DNA from: a virus
Length of the DNA: 64,000 nt
Virus record (IMG/VR): IMGVR_UViG_3300032893_000013
Location: 44,070 to 108,069 of that record
Strand: one strand, 5' to 3'
The notes beneath the pieces are model-generated. The model had not been told where the DNA came from. It made no database searches and worked only from the letters and a program-made list of their open reading frames with translations. The translations under genes and the position numbers were made by a program. Each line of letters starts with the position of its first letter. The stretch's first letter is position 1. Positions 13,679 to 38,104 of this stretch are shown in pieces.

Positions 13679-14675
13679 TTTTGATCCCTTTCAATCGTAA
13701 AACTTTTCTTTCAATCAAGGATAATACACCAAAACTTTTCTGAAGTACATCCAAAGTGTCATCGTCCTCAACGGCCTGGTATCCGTCCATGCCATCAGTC
13801 GGGGCTACGAACGTATCTACCAGTCGGGTGTCGGAGTCTTCCGAAATGGTATCATCAAGCGATGAGTAGGAAGTGGCGGCGAGTAAATCATTCACTTCTT
13901 CTTCAGCGATGTCCAAAGCCTGAGCCACATCTCTGTTTTGCATATTCGGATTTTTTTGTAACATTTTCCGAATCTGATAGAGTTTTTTCTTGGCGTGTTC
14001 ACCAACCGTAGCAGATGAAATGGTCGATCCGTTGCTTATGAGATTGCTGATGATTCTTCCAATAGCCATAGCGTGGAAGCTGGAGGCTTCTTCGTCCATC
14101 ACATATTTGTCCACAGCCACAACAAGTGCTTCATTGGCAAGTTGGATCAAGTCCTCAAACTCAGACGCTCCAGCGGCCCAAGACTTCTTGAAAATTCCAG
14201 CTTTATGAAGCGAAAGGTACAAATGCTTGTTGATGATTTCTTCGCGCAATTCCTTGATCTCTGAGAAAAGTTTACTCAAAGTCTCGCGGAACGTCGGCTT
14301 CTTGTCTTTCTTCTCTTCCTTGCCCTCAAGACACTGGATGGCAAAAAGGCAGAATCGGTAATTTATCGGGACCGGATACATGAGCTTTGGCTGAACGTCT
14401 CGTATAGCCTTGTTCACCGTGTCGAGGTACGAATCCTGCCGAGCGCGGAAATATGACTTGGCAACTTTGATGCCGCCCTGCGACCGGGAAATTTTCTGAA
14501 TGAATTCCAGATATACCTTGCGGCCCGCCGCCGTAGATTGTAACTTTTTCGCAAAAAGCTGTTCGCGCTCATAGAGTCTTCCGAAAACTTCCAGGATGTC
14601 CTCATCCGAAAGATTCTTGAGGGCACCGTTGATGTCCTCCAGGTAGACTTTTACGAGATCCGCGAATTCGTTCAT
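13659..14675 (-). CDS. Sigma70-family factor with shortened region 4
   Basis: 338 residues. Residues ~150-225 look like sigma region 2 (NKHLYL, FEDLIQLANEALVVAVDKY, FHAMAIGRIISNLI) and ~230-290 like region 3. The protein ends soon after LSLIERKVLRLKGI, at the start of region 4, lacking the helix-turn-helix that reads -35 boxes. Likely directs host RNA polymerase to phage late promoters, as T4 gp55 does without region 4. Overlaps helicase gene by four bases. Confidence 0.78.
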   Translation of the reverse strand: MNEFADLVKVYLEDINGALKNLSDEDILEVFGRLYEREQLFAKKLQSTAAGRKVYLEFIQKISRSQGGIKVAKSYFRARQDSYLDTVNKAIRDVQPKLMYPVPINYRFCLFAIQCLEGKEEKKDKKPTFRETLSKLFSEIKELREEIINKHLYLSLHKAGIFKKSWAAGASEFEDLIQLANEALVVAVDKYVMDEEASSFHAMAIGRIISNLISNGSTISSATVGEHAKKKLYQIRKMLQKNPNMQNRDVAQALDIAEEEVNDLLAATSYSSLDDTISEDSDTRLVDTFVAPTDGMDGYQAVEDDDTLDVLQKSFGVLSLIERKVLRLKGIKIDGNDE

Positions 14676-16301: not shown

Positions 16302-16414
16302 CGAGACGTGACTCTCATCAAAAAAAGAAGGCCGAGGAGTATTGCAACTTCGGCGATTACTGGATTGGCTGATAGCAAAAAGTACGCCTGCCAGAGAAGA
16401 TGTCTAATTTTCAT
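16298..16414 (-). CDS. 38-residue membrane protein, first gene of leftward operon
   Basis: ATG 16414 is preceded by AGAGG at seven bases and by a near-consensus promoter. The product has one hydrophobic segment (~residues 17-33) and an Arg-containing C-terminus. Its stop overlaps the next start (ATGA). Too short for most gene finders; support is promoter, ribosome site and coupling. Confidence 0.65.
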   Translation of the reverse strand: MKIRHLLWQAYFLLSANPVIAEVAILLGLLFLMRVTSR

Positions 16415-16433
16415 GGGATAGCCTCTGTTGCCC

Positions 16434-16462
16434 ATACTAGCGTCTCAAAATGGGATTGTCAA
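16434..16462 (-). promoter_or_regulatory. Strong leftward sigma70 promoter
   Basis: On the minus strand TTGACA, 17 bases, TAGTAT; start expected near 16427, about 13 bases before ATG 16414. Drives the leftward operon that leads into the head genes. Its -35 lies 11 bases from the -35 of the rightward promoter. Confidence 0.8.
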
Positions 16463-16473
16463 GCGGAAATCAA

Positions 16474-16502
16474 TTGACCTGTGTACTTTTTTGGGACATA
16501 CT
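16474..16502 (+). promoter_or_regulatory. Rightward promoter of initiator gene, leaderless
   Basis: TTGACC, 17 bases, CATACT. Only six bases separate the -10 box from ATG 16509, so the transcript should start at or next to the start codon. No ribosome site is present. Confidence 0.65.
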
Positions 16503-16508
16503 CAGGCA

Positions 16509-17411
16509 ATGTCGGCAAAAAAGCAGTTTGAAAAACTTCCATACCACATCCTGTTGAACCCCGATCTTTCGCCAGAATCCAAGCTACTCTTCCTGATCCT
16601 TAAGAAATATAAAGGCTTTGGGAAGGCGTTTGCCAAGATTGACACACTCGCGGAGCGTCTCAACTGCTCCAGGAACTGCATTGGATCATACGTCGATGAG
16701 CTTGTAAAGGCAAAGCTCCTGACTTACAAAAAAGGCGGCTTCAAAAAGGCCAATGAATACGAGCCTGACATGAATCCGGCGACGCGCTATGCCATGGTTT
16801 CCGTTGATTTTCTTCAAAGTAAAAATTTTACATCAACTGAAAAAATTATACTGATCTACCTGAAGGAGCGGGCCGGTCTTGAATTCGGCTACAGGCAGAT
16901 GTCAAAGGACCTTGGACTTAGCCCCAAAACCTTCCAGCGGTTTTTCTCCGGCGACAAATGGCACCGATTCTTCGTGAGAAACGTCGGCCAGGGAAAGAAC
17001 AAAAGTACATACACACTCACGAAAGAGGGGCATTCAATCTCGGAAGGGGGTATGGACATTTTTGACGATGGTATGGACAAAACCGTGTCTCTACCTGTGG
17101 ACAAAACTGTGCAAGGGGTATGGACAAATCTGACAGGGGGTATGGACAAAACCATGTCACCAATCAGACTTAATAAAAACAGACTTAGGAAATCAGACTT
17201 AAACATTCAAGTCTTTTCTATTCAGACATGGAATTGCAGTTGTGGATGCAAGACAGAAGACGAACATAAAAAATTCCAAGAAAAAATTAAAGCCGACTTC
17301 GATAGAGAAATTTCTCGTCCTCCCAAAAAGACTATCCTCTCAGAACAACAAGAAGAAATGGCAAAAAAAATCAAAGAGTGGGAACAAACAGGCTTCTTTC
17401 CCAAAAAATAG
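16509..17411 (+). CDS. Winged-helix replication initiator candidate with internal origin
   Basis: 300 residues. ATG 16509 is chosen because family-like sequence (KLPYHILLN) begins there and the promoter abuts it; a TTG at 16428 is upstream of the promoter. Residues ~10-85 and ~95-165 form two winged-helix-like domains (DTLAERLNCSRNCIGSYV; YRQMSKDLGLSPKTFQRFF), as in initiator/RepA-type or phage O-like proteins. The gene body holds iteron-like and AT-rich repeats, as in lambda O. C-terminal ~70 residues have a CSCGC cluster and charged helices. Initiator role is inferred. Confidence 0.75.
   Translation: MSAKKQFEKLPYHILLNPDLSPESKLLFLILKKYKGFGKAFAKIDTLAERLNCSRNCIGSYVDELVKAKLLTYKKGGFKKANEYEPDMNPATRYAMVSVDFLQSKNFTSTEKIILIYLKERAGLEFGYRQMSKDLGLSPKTFQRFFSGDKWHRFFVRNVGQGKNKSTYTLTKEGHSISEGGMDIFDDGMDKTVSLPVDKTVQGVWTNLTGGMDKTMSPIRLNKNRLRKSDLNIQVFSIQTWNCSCGCKTEDEHKKFQEKIKADFDREISRPPKKTILSEQQEEMAKKIKEWEQTGFFPKK
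17046..17160 (+). repeat. Five iteron-like direct repeats (TATGGACAAA core)
   Basis: Five copies of T(A/G)TGGACA begin at 17051, 17072, 17096, 17119 and 17141, all in one orientation and 21-24 bases apart (about two helix turns). Three copies are preceded by a G run (GGGGTAT or GGGGGTAT). The copies fall in different reading frames of the host gene, so the DNA rather than the peptide is what repeats. Confidence 0.8.
17162..17214 (+). repeat. AT-rich direct repeats beside iterons, DUE-like
   Basis: CAGACTTA occurs at 17165, 17180 and 17194, 14-15 bases apart in A/T-rich sequence, and an inverted copy (AAGTCT) follows at 17209. It lies immediately downstream of the iterons, the position of the unwinding element in lambda-type origins. 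Confidence 0.6.
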
Positions 17412-17666: not shown

Positions 17667-19493
17667 ATGTACAGAGAACTTGTCAAAGCAAAGACAGCCG
17701 CAAAGAAAATTACCTACGGTGGAGGCGGCGGCGGAAACTCCGACGATCTCAAAACTGTAGTTTTAGACACTGTAAGGAAAGCCAGCCAGTTGGTGGGCAG
17801 TACCCTTGGACCTAATGGGCGCGTGGTTTTAATCGAAAGGCAAGAGAGCCTTCCCCCTTTTACAACGAAGGATGGGATCACCGTTTTCAATTCCATGGCG
17901 TTTGCTAACCCAACTGCGCAGGCTGTTTTAGAAGCTGCGCGGGATAGTAGTAGCAAAACGAACGTAGAGGCGGGAGATGGGACCACTACGGCTACTATCC
18001 TTGCGGAAGCTCTTATCCGCTTAGGTTTTGAATACCTTGAAAAAAATCCAAAGTTGAGCGTTCAGAAGGTCATGCGCGAAATGGAAAGAACTTTCCGCGA
18101 CCTTGTGGTTCCCGCGATCAAAAGTTTGTCAGTAAAGATTACAGAGCAAAACAGCGACGATCTACTTCGTAAAGTGGCTATGGTAGCGACGAATAACGAT
18201 GAGGAGATGTCAGATGCAGTCATTAGAGCTTTTGGAACTGTTGGGCACGGTGGAAACATTACCATCGACGAAGGCCCAGGAGCATCGGGATACCAAGTCG
18301 AAAAGATTGAAGGTCTTCCTATCGCCCGTGGATTTGAAGATTCGTGCGGTCGCTTTTTTGAAGAGTTCATCAATGACAAAGCCAATTATCGTGTCATTCT
18401 CGAAAAACCGCATTTCATTCTCTACAACGGAAAGCTCAACGAACCTTCTGCCTTGATTCCGATTCTTCAGAAAGTGGCGACTGCGACCGGCTTGACCGGC
18501 GAAGAGATCCGCGCCTCAAAATTTTCCCCGAATATCATCGTTGTGGCGCACCATTTCTCAGAAGCCGTACTCGCGTTCATGATGAATAACTTCAAGAATG
18601 CCGAGGCTTTGAATCTTTTTCCTCTTAAGACTCCGCTTACACAACAAACGAACAGTCCATTTCATTTTTTACACGATCTATCGGCGTTTACCGGCGCGAT
18701 TGTTTTCGATCCGGTGAGCAGACCGCTCGAAAGTGCAGAACTTGAGGATCTAGGTGTAGATGAGATGCGTCTGTTCGAGTCTTATCGCTACAAATCCCTC
18801 CTTTTAGGAGAACCGCCAGAACCTATCCTGATTGCCCGAGTCGAAGAACTTGAGCAACAGGCTAAACAGCCGGAAAGTGAGCTTGATGGCGAAATTATTC
18901 GTGAGCGCATGTCCCTTTTGACGGGAGGCGTTGCCCGAGTGCGCGTTCTTGGCTCATCTGAGTCCGAACTGAAGGAAAAGAAACACCGCGTTGAAGATGC
19001 GGTCATGGCAATCAAAGGCGCGCTCAAAGAAGGAGTGTTGCCCGGATGTTGCAAAACTCTTCTCGTCCTTTCGTCAGCCATCGCTCAAAATCCGACAACA
19101 TCCGACGCCGTGAAACAAATCATGGCTCGCGCCTTGGCCGAACCGTTCAGTAGAATTTTCACAAATGGTGGAGCTACTACCGATGAAATCCAAGCGATCT
19201 ATGCAAAAATGATGGATGTAAAAAATCCTTTCTTTTACACATACGACGCTTTGAGCGGAAAAACCGGCGATGCCATCGAGTTGGGAATCGTTGACTCTGC
19301 ATCCGCCGTCCTGATGGCAATTAAAAACAGCCTGGCGGTCGCTAAGATGCTTATGGGACTGTCTGGCATTGTTGTGTTCCAACGCGATCTCGAAACGGAA
19401 ATTGACGCCTCTAGGACGTTCAAAGCGGAAAATCAGGCAATGGCCGAAGCGATCCGCGACTCTAACCAAGAACATTGGGAACCGCCAATTTGA
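17667..19493 (+). CDS. groEL: Phage GroEL-type chaperonin
   Basis: 608 residues against about 548 for host GroEL. TLGPNGR (~48), the ATP-site GDGTTTAT (~102) and HRVEDAVMAIKGA (with the catalytic-type Asp) are conserved, so ATPase activity is likely. A Gly run near residues 19-24 and extra residues in the apical and middle parts account for the length; the C-terminal GGM tail is absent. It would fold phage (e.g. capsid) proteins, possibly with the GroES-like candidate at 13340-13678. AAGGAT precedes the ATG. Confidence 0.93.
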   Translation: MYRELVKAKTAAKKITYGGGGGGNSDDLKTVVLDTVRKASQLVGSTLGPNGRVVLIERQESLPPFTTKDGITVFNSMAFANPTAQAVLEAARDSSSKTNVEAGDGTTTATILAEALIRLGFEYLEKNPKLSVQKVMREMERTFRDLVVPAIKSLSVKITEQNSDDLLRKVAMVATNNDEEMSDAVIRAFGTVGHGGNITIDEGPGASGYQVEKIEGLPIARGFEDSCGRFFEEFINDKANYRVILEKPHFILYNGKLNEPSALIPILQKVATATGLTGEEIRASKFSPNIIVVAHHFSEAVLAFMMNNFKNAEALNLFPLKTPLTQQTNSPFHFLHDLSAFTGAIVFDPVSRPLESAELEDLGVDEMRLFESYRYKSLLLGEPPEPILIARVEELEQQAKQPESELDGEIIRERMSLLTGGVARVRVLGSSESELKEKKHRVEDAVMAIKGALKEGVLPGCCKTLLVLSSAIAQNPTTSDAVKQIMARALAEPFSRIFTNGGATTDEIQAIYAKMMDVKNPFFYTYDALSGKTGDAIELGIVDSASAVLMAIKNSLAVAKMLMGLSGIVVFQRDLETEIDASRTFKAENQAMAEAIRDSNQEHWEPPI

Positions 19494-36562: not shown

Positions 36563-38104
36563 ATGTCAGACGATAAGGTACTTACATTCAGCGAACAGTT
36601 CCAAGAGGCAATTGTTGGACACTGTTTTGAGAACCCCAATTTCTTTGCGAAATGTTGCGCGAAATTGGAACCGCAGTGGTTTACCAAGAATATGATGATT
36701 GGAACTCTCTTCAGTCAACTGCGTCAGGCGTATAAGAGCGAAGGCGTAGCTCCAAAGTCTACTGAGGAATTCAAGAACTTCGAGTTTTTCCTTGAGCAAA
36801 AACCAGATGAGCGCCAGAAATATTACAACTTGATCGACAGATGCGTGCTTTCTGCAAAGAATTTCAGTCTCGAAAAGATAGCCCGCCAATTGACCGGCTT
36901 CCTGCGCGTGTCTATGTTCAAAGAATCCATTGAGGGCGCATCCCGTCGCTACAACGCTTCTGGCTTTGATGAATCTTATGATTGGACTCAGAAGAAGCTG
37001 GCGGAAATAAAAGACGCGACCTTCGAGGAAAATAAGTCAGTCCTATCGTTCGATCATCCTGAAAGTTGGATTCGCAAGCAAGAAGAGCGACGCGAAAGAT
37101 CCATTTCAACCGGCAGTAGACTGCTCGATTCTGCTTTGGGCGGCGGCCTTTTCAAGAAGGAAACGACCGCGATCATGGCGCCGTCAAACGTCGGCAAAAC
37201 GACCGCGTTCATCACAATAGCCCGCCACGCCATCAAGACGGGCAACAACGTGCTCTTCATGATCCACGAGGGCGATCCTGAAGAAATTCGTCTTCGCATC
37301 CTGTGCGCGTTCATGGGAATCTCCACTAAGACTATGTTCGAGTGGATGAAGGACAGAACCAAACGAATGGTTGTCCATGCGATGGCTAAGTATGTCAATG
37401 AAAAACTTACGTTCGTTCCATACATCAAAACTGGTGGAATGTACGTTGAGGACGTGATTGATCTAGTGAAAAGATTGCACGAGGAAAAGAAGGCCGAAAC
37501 TGGTCGCGGCTTCGATCTCATCATCAACGATTACCCCAAAAAGTTGCGATCCCGATACCGTGGAGCCTCGAAAGAGGGCTTATACCGCGTGGAAGCCGCT
37601 GAGATTTATGACAATTTCAACCATTTGGCAGTTGAACTTGACGTTGCTTGCCTTGTGGCAATCCAGACAAATAGGACTGGCCTCAAGCAAAACAACAACC
37701 GAATCGAAGCCGATCACCTGTTGGGAATGGAAGAAATCGACGAAGCATACGGAATTGCGCAAAATATGCCGAACATCATCACTCTCAACAGAAGCCCAAG
37801 CGACCGTCAGAAAAACATTCTTCGCATCAACGTCGCCAAGTCAAGAAACAGCATGACTGATATTGCAATCAATACACGAACCTGTTACAATTGCTACGTC
37901 GTGTTCGGTGATCGTGAATTATTCGACACGGCAGGATTGTGGACCAATGAAATTAGTGGCGGATTCCTGGCGTCTTTCCATCAAGAAGACAATAGGAAAT
38001 TCCCGACTGAGGCGATTGATGAGGGCCTCATGAAACACGAAAACTTTTCCGATCCTGATTCCCAAGTGGGCGTAGTCGTTCCTGGAAGTAAGATCGAAGC
38101 ATAG
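36563..38104 (+). CDS. dnaB: DnaB-like replicative helicase
   Basis: 513 residues. N-terminal helical domain, then RecA-fold core: TGSRLLDSALGGGLFKKE, Walker A APSNVGKTT (~207), Walker B DLIINDYP (~315), Gln motif CLVAIQTNR (~365) and NVAKSRNS near the end, typical of phage DnaB/gp41 helicases. Unwinds DNA at the fork with the primase. Confidence 0.9.
   Translation: MSDDKVLTFSEQFQEAIVGHCFENPNFFAKCCAKLEPQWFTKNMMIGTLFSQLRQAYKSEGVAPKSTEEFKNFEFFLEQKPDERQKYYNLIDRCVLSAKNFSLEKIARQLTGFLRVSMFKESIEGASRRYNASGFDESYDWTQKKLAEIKDATFEENKSVLSFDHPESWIRKQEERRERSISTGSRLLDSALGGGLFKKETTAIMAPSNVGKTTAFITIARHAIKTGNNVLFMIHEGDPEEIRLRILCAFMGISTKTMFEWMKDRTKRMVVHAMAKYVNEKLTFVPYIKTGGMYVEDVIDLVKRLHEEKKAETGRGFDLIINDYPKKLRSRYRGASKEGLYRVEAAEIYDNFNHLAVELDVACLVAIQTNRTGLKQNNNRIEADHLLGMEEIDEAYGIAQNMPNIITLNRSPSDRQKNILRINVAKSRNSMTDIAINTRTCYNCYVVFGDRELFDTAGLWTNEISGGFLASFHQEDNRKFPTEAIDEGLMKHENFSDPDSQVGVVVPGSKIEA

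Follow-up and report, generated by a model that had tools for sequence, protein, structure and literature searches.

Several replicons are already known to carry their origin inside the gene of its own initiator. In the lambda O gene, iterons and an adjoining AT-rich tract lie mid-gene (PMC7466680), and oriL of phage SPP1 consists of direct repeats and an AT-rich DNA unwinding element inside gene 38, which are bound by gp38 (PMC6316719). On plasmid pSK41, the N-terminal domain of Rep binds four Rep boxes located centrally in rep, the ori encodes the linker, and the domains of Rep resemble DnaD (PMC5703833). We analysed a 64,000-nt stretch of viral DNA (here, the window; positions 44070-108069 of the 108-kb record IMGVR_UViG_3300032893_000013) in which the gene of a 300-residue protein, P0001, follows the same plan. 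We infer binding, melting, helicase recruitment and origin activity at 17046-17260, and we consider this region to be, probably, a replication origin inside the gene of its own initiator.

A sequence-only reading of this DNA had likened the gene to lambda O and to Rep genes, and in layout the likeness holds: the repeats lie between the winged-helix and C-terminal parts, with an AT-rich, repeat-bearing tract after them. Mid-gene iterons and an AT-rich tract are shared with lambda O and ori-lambda, although the iteron sequences differ and P0001 has no match to O-like PHROG families at E<0.01. Also unlike lambda O, P0001 is suggested to have two winged helices, and a DnaB-like helicase and Pol III alpha are encoded by the phage itself. 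With SPP1 the locus has in common the in-gene direct repeats, the AT-rich tract and a phage-encoded DnaB-type helicase, but SPP1 has a second origin, oriR, whereas a search of this 108-kb record revealed no further array of this kind; in a further difference from SPP1, no helicase loader gene was identified in this phage. DnaD likeness is found both in pSK41 Rep, a RepA_N protein, and, weakly, in P0001, which however has no RepA_N Pfam match at E<0.01 and belongs to a phage replicon rather than a plasmid. Rep_3 proteins have a second winged helix, which is only weakly indicated in P0001, and the Rep_3 Pfam domain likewise gave no match at E<0.01. The resemblance of P0001 to lambda O, SPP1 gp38 and pSK41 Rep thus appears to be one of anatomy, with homology to lambda O, RepA_N and Rep_3 not indicated by the families matched.

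A winged-helix protein at a divergent site

The gene for P0001 is the first rightward gene at a point where transcription diverges (Table 1). To its left, on the minus strand, are a small ORF and genes for a DEAD helicase, a sigma-like factor, a phosphoesterase, the terminase and the portal; to its right are genes for groEL, an SbcC-like protein, dUTPase, Pol III alpha, a UvsX/RecA-like protein, primase and the DnaB-like helicase. The groEL-like chaperonin (window 17667-19493) heads the replication module, and, according to their records, viral contigs with a related Pol III alpha encode one too. The cumulative T-A skew of the record peaks at ~59-62 kb, at gene 16509, a position confounded by gene orientation: coding-strand bias alone could yield such a switch, which makes it ambiguous as a sign of an origin. 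The GC skew has no clean minimum at the gene and is not decisive.

The protein had been read as a winged-helix initiator, and the family searches bear this out. An HTH_36 (PF13730) match at 1.7e-14 (53.8 bits, against a gathering score of 25) identifies the N-terminal part as being of winged-helix DNA-binding type, and the same Pfam search gave a sub-threshold match to the DnaD N-terminal domain. Among PHROGs, P0001 matches replication initiation protein (3.1e-7; the replication initiation families matched are phrog_270, phrog_8102 and phrog_19658) and DnaD-like helicase loader (phrog_186; 1.3e-4). A further HTH_36 match (E=0.019 on a sub-fragment, E=0.002 in the scan of the record) suggests a tandem winged-helix protein, the second winged helix being only weakly indicated. 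The C-terminal part has no family match in the Pfam and PHROG searches, the single-sequence AlphaFold model of the protein was unusable (pLDDT 34), and comparison of its sequence with solved structures returned nothing useful.

Table 1. Features of the P0001 locus (window coordinates)
Feature	Position	Strand	Basis
Divergent intergenic region between leftward structural and rightward replication genes	16302..16508	.	
Gene of winged-helix replication-initiator type, P0001, 300 aa	16509..17411	+	Pfam and PHROG matches
First winged-helix (HTH_36) domain, residues 20-71	16566..16721	+	Pfam match
Probable second winged-helix domain, residues ~108-144	16830..16940	+	Weak HTH_36 match
Iteron 1, TATGGACA, GMD frame	17051..17058	+	
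Iteron 2, TATGGACA, GMD frame	17072..17079	+	
Iteron 3, TGTGGACA, PVD, same frame as the GMD copies	17096..17103	+	
Iteron 4, TATGGACA, shifted frame (VWT)	17119..17126	+	
Iteron 5, TATGGACA, GMD frame	17141..17148	+	
Candidate DNA unwinding element, AT-rich DNA immediately 3' of the iterons	17150..17299	+	
Three AATCAGACTTA-type repeats in the AT-rich tract	17162..17205	+	
C-terminal-part region, predicted helices (low confidence) at residues 250-268 and 277-294	17241..17411	+	

Iterons and AT-rich repeats within the gene

Five same-strand T(A/G)TGGACA repeats at 21-24 nt had been described here, and all five are present as exact copies, spaced by 21, 24, 23 and 22 nt and contained entirely within the ORF. 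The array lies >540 nt into the gene, between the winged-helix part and the C-terminal part, and the only other TRTGGACA in the 64-kb window is a single copy on the minus strand at 14108. The array is real and non-random. In a test for the longest regular chain of an 8-mer (at most one mismatch, spacing 19-26), which was picked after the array had been seen, the gene gave 5, and the maximum was 3 both in 1000 codon-order shuffles and in 1000 dinucleotide shuffles of the gene. This test superseded a statistic that carried no spacing constraint, for which 5 copies were reached in 6/40 shuffles and which was not decisive. No strong hairpin was found within the array (z -1.2).

The 108-kb record was searched in pieces for arrays of four or more 8-mer copies at 18-27 nt. 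The iteron array alone is not spaced by multiples of three throughout; every other array recovered has a spacing divisible by three (21, 18 or 27 nt). One of these others, at ~2050-2170 of the window on the minus strand (record 46122), encodes a heptad peptide repeat, (MKKEESS)n, in frame at 21 nt, and is a peptide-level repeat, unlike the iterons.

The DNA that directly follows the array has a GC content of 28-38% in 50-nt windows (17150-17299), compared with ~43% for the gene. AT-richness by itself does not single out this tract, because the gene has another lower-GC stretch upstream of the array (~16796-16865). Within the tract, CAGACTTA occurs exactly three times, at 17165, 17180 and 17194, and its spacing of 15 and then 14 nt breaks the frame; three exact copies were seen in 0/500 shuffles. 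This repeat had not been reported in the sequence-only reading. As described for lambda and SPP1, an iteron origin with its DNA unwinding element is built in this order, iterons first and AT-rich DNA after them.

On the reading that we favor, the tandem winged-helix part of P0001 would bind the five TRTGGACA iterons, which should present themselves on one face of the DNA because they are about two helical turns apart. The resulting nucleoprotein complex would open the adjacent AT-rich repeat tract, and the C-terminal part of P0001 would recruit the DnaB-like helicase (36563-38104), either directly or through a loader. The recruited helicase would arrive together with the phage primase and Pol III alpha.

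The divergent site in relatives

No homologue of the full P0001 was found in phages (by tblastn) or in viral or bacterial contigs (by peptide patterns), and alignments of the helicase and the terminase yielded no relatives. Relatives were recovered through groEL and Pol III alpha, all of them lacking the full gene, and there was no array near groEL in the more distant ones. The nearest annotated relative is Myxococcus phage Mx1 (OR576727; 36% identity in the helicase, 42% in groEL and 35% in Pol III alpha), on which no papers were found in the literature. Its gene order matches that of this phage, and at the corresponding divergent site there is a winged-helix ORF (WNM70306.1; L132:48904-49188, which is Mx1 168903-169187). 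This ORF is annotated as 95 aa and has ~122 codons when read from an upstream ATG; the annotated start falls within the winged helix, and the annotated protein looks truncated at that end. The ~122-codon ORF has an HTH_36-like match, and it resembles P0001 in one winged helix only.

The Mx1 ORF contains no in-gene array, and GGGACGTTAATCA-type repeats and AT-rich DNA lie upstream of it. The intergenic DNA there (L132:49188-49622; Mx1 169187-169621) combines several GGGAC(G/T)TTAATCA-type repeats with a very AT-rich tract, and is a candidate for the Mx1 origin. The cumulative GC skew of Mx1, computed with 8 kb of the genome left out, has its minimum at ~0-3 kb and its maximum at ~92 kb. A second relative, contig L298/G308 (groEL 45% identity), has no winged-helix gene at the site but ~300 nt with palindromes. 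This stretch, upstream of groEL (L321:7591-7910), contains a perfect TGTATATATACA palindrome and an GGGTGAATTAC inverted repeat.

Because Mx1 and L298/G308 keep the replication module without the full gene, gene 16509 is not universal in the lineage, and initiator and array together look like a cassette at a conserved site rather than a lineage core gene. It is mainly for this reason, the absence of the apparent cassette from the nearest relatives, that our claim goes no further. The same observation lends itself to another explanation, in which gene and array are an acquired plasmid or prophage replicon, now accessory or a relic, and the main replication starts otherwise, as in Mx1-like relatives. 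Both relatives do have the groEL, SbcC and Pol III module without the gene, and this phage has UvsX/RecA-like and SbcC genes, which are of types that serve recombination-dependent replication. However, neither the reading frame nor the two repeat families show damage, the gene occupies a conserved divergent site, and the Mx1 site also holds AT-rich DNA, repeats and a winged-helix gene, which suggests replacement in place. We therefore regard an accessory or relic replicon as unlikely, even if it is the strongest of the competitors to an active origin at 17046-17260.

Reading frame, spacing and other initiator genes

A different explanation puts the constraint on the protein: the linker would depend on a recurring (G/P)(M/V)DKTV-like peptide, of which the DNA repeats would be a by-product. 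The earlier claim that the repeats lie in different frames (GMD, PVD, VWT) stands for copy 4 but not for the GMD and PVD copies, which share one frame; relative to the gene the frames are 2, 2, 2, 1 and 2, the shift in copy 4 coming from the spacings of 23 and then 22 nt. Since only copy 4 is shifted, the argument from the window alone for DNA over peptide hangs on that copy. It keeps 12 repeat bases yet reads VWT: GGGGTATGGACA, common to copies 1 and 5, is kept in it across the change of frame, which is hard to explain by a peptide constraint. True peptide repeats also look different. A scan of bacterial genomes for TGGACAAAA triplets gave four loci, and the two read through (L134 and L137) encode in-frame 21-nt coiled-coil heptads (GMDKRLD). 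These show that such DNA can serve a peptide, as might be supposed from the four of five iterons that share a frame here, but their repeats are spaced in multiples of three, 21 nt each, in contrast to the 21, 24, 23 and 22 nt of the array, and the downstream CAGACTTA copies break the frame as well.

An independent sample points the same way. HTH_36 genes were collected through their domain in 299 genomes belonging to a single bacterial phylum, and 8 of the 37 that were testable have in-gene chains of at least four copies (four to six) at 19-26 nt, a rough rate given that some of the 37 are near-duplicates or not replication genes. The same chain test gave 0/75 for other ORFs of the sampled loci (Fisher p=8e-5). 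In seven of the eight array-bearing genes the copies fall in two or three frames, so most arrays in the sample are out of frame, and we consider a peptide-level origin of the P0001 repeats very improbable. The iteron sequences in the sample are lineage-specific, with a spacing of about 22 nt, and include GGGTGTTC (22x5), GGGTGGTC (22x4), ACAGTCAC (22x4), TAGTTGCT (23/21/22/23) and others; AATGTCCA was found in L168 only.

A DNA-only scan of viral contigs looked for three TGGACA copies exactly 22 nt apart, a distance at which peptide repeats could not stay in frame. This gave 75 stretches, redundancy kept. Among 30 longer ORFs with such arrays, hand-chosen for length and non-redundancy, the commonest families were replication initiation, O-like and DnaD-like loader, with 11/30 matching phrog_270. 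The reversed control hexamer, ACAGGT, gave 45 stretches (redundancy kept), and 7/13 of its longer ORFs match phrog_270. Since ACAGGT also recovers initiators, the signature is a 22-nt in-gene array in winged-helix initiator genes and not the TGGACA word; TGGACA as a universal iteron core was rejected on this ground and because other sequences are used in the HTH_36 sample. Many other 22-nt stretches sit in short ORFs or non-coding DNA. Small ORFs at L064:971-1029, L090:3771-3829 and L103:2328-2386 hold interleaved arrays on both strands, in which triplets of TGGACA and of TGTCCA have a 22-nt spacing.

The AT-rich flank recurs too. In 35 genes with an array, AT content averages 64% over the 50 nt that follow it, versus 52% for the genes, and the next 100 nt after the array exceed the gene-average AT in 29/35 (Wilcoxon p=9e-6), irrespective of the strand of the hexamer, although N and K residues of a disordered linker also raise AT content. 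Three winged-helix-type genes carry their repeats on the antisense strand (L071:9228-10079, L096:1546-2379 and L229:6921-7745), and in these the repeats are followed by NNINNT- or KNDKND-type codon runs, which are AT-rich short DNA repeats. The layout of the P0001 gene is found in many unrelated HTH_36/DnaD-like initiator genes; these (among them L145, L161, L151, L139, L037 and L122) have the array after the winged helix, a spacing of ~22 nt and AT-rich DNA 3' of it, but mostly different iteron sequences. P0001 has no significant overall sequence similarity to the viral array loci with which it was compared.

Least probable, by a small step, is that P0001 regulates transcription of the early and late genes that diverge here, with the in-gene repeats as operator or roadblock: the gene does lie at a divergent promoter region, and Mx1 has a short winged-helix gene at the site with repeats upstream, but there is no copy of TRTGGACA in the intergenic/promoter region 16302-16508, the array is located >540 nt into the ORF, with an AT-rich repeat tract coupled to it, and the family matches are to replication initiators.

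An origin at 17046-17260 is thus favored by the non-random array, the AT-rich repeats, the initiator families, the replication-gene context and the recurrence of the arrangement in unrelated initiator genes, as well as by the position of the gene, where transcription direction and cumulative AT skew both switch, and by a promoter region free of iterons. Against it count the shared frame of four of the five iterons, the lack of any homologue of full-length P0001 in the searches, the absence of the full gene from the nearest relatives, the confounding of the skew switch by gene orientation and the GC skew without a clean minimum.

That absence from the nearest relatives also suggests that initiator and origin are exchanged as a unit. 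More broadly, and tentatively, since we give it somewhat less than an even chance, HTH_36/DnaD-like phage initiators may form one large, sequence-diverse class of self-contained origins, many of their genes carrying private iterons spaced ~22 bp apart, whatever the frame or strand, and an AT-rich, often repeat-bearing tract 3' of them, as cassettes that are swapped in place among phages sharing the rest of their replication module. If this is true, origins would often be readable from raw phage DNA by the 22-nt rule alone. For this large phage, which has no close cultured relative, the origin is predicted to within ~200 bp. Beyond this phage, the wider observation is that 22-nt arrays are a frequent mark of winged-helix initiator genes; the lambda O plan is indicated as common among unrelated initiators of this kind, and their origins could be predicted from repeat spacing.
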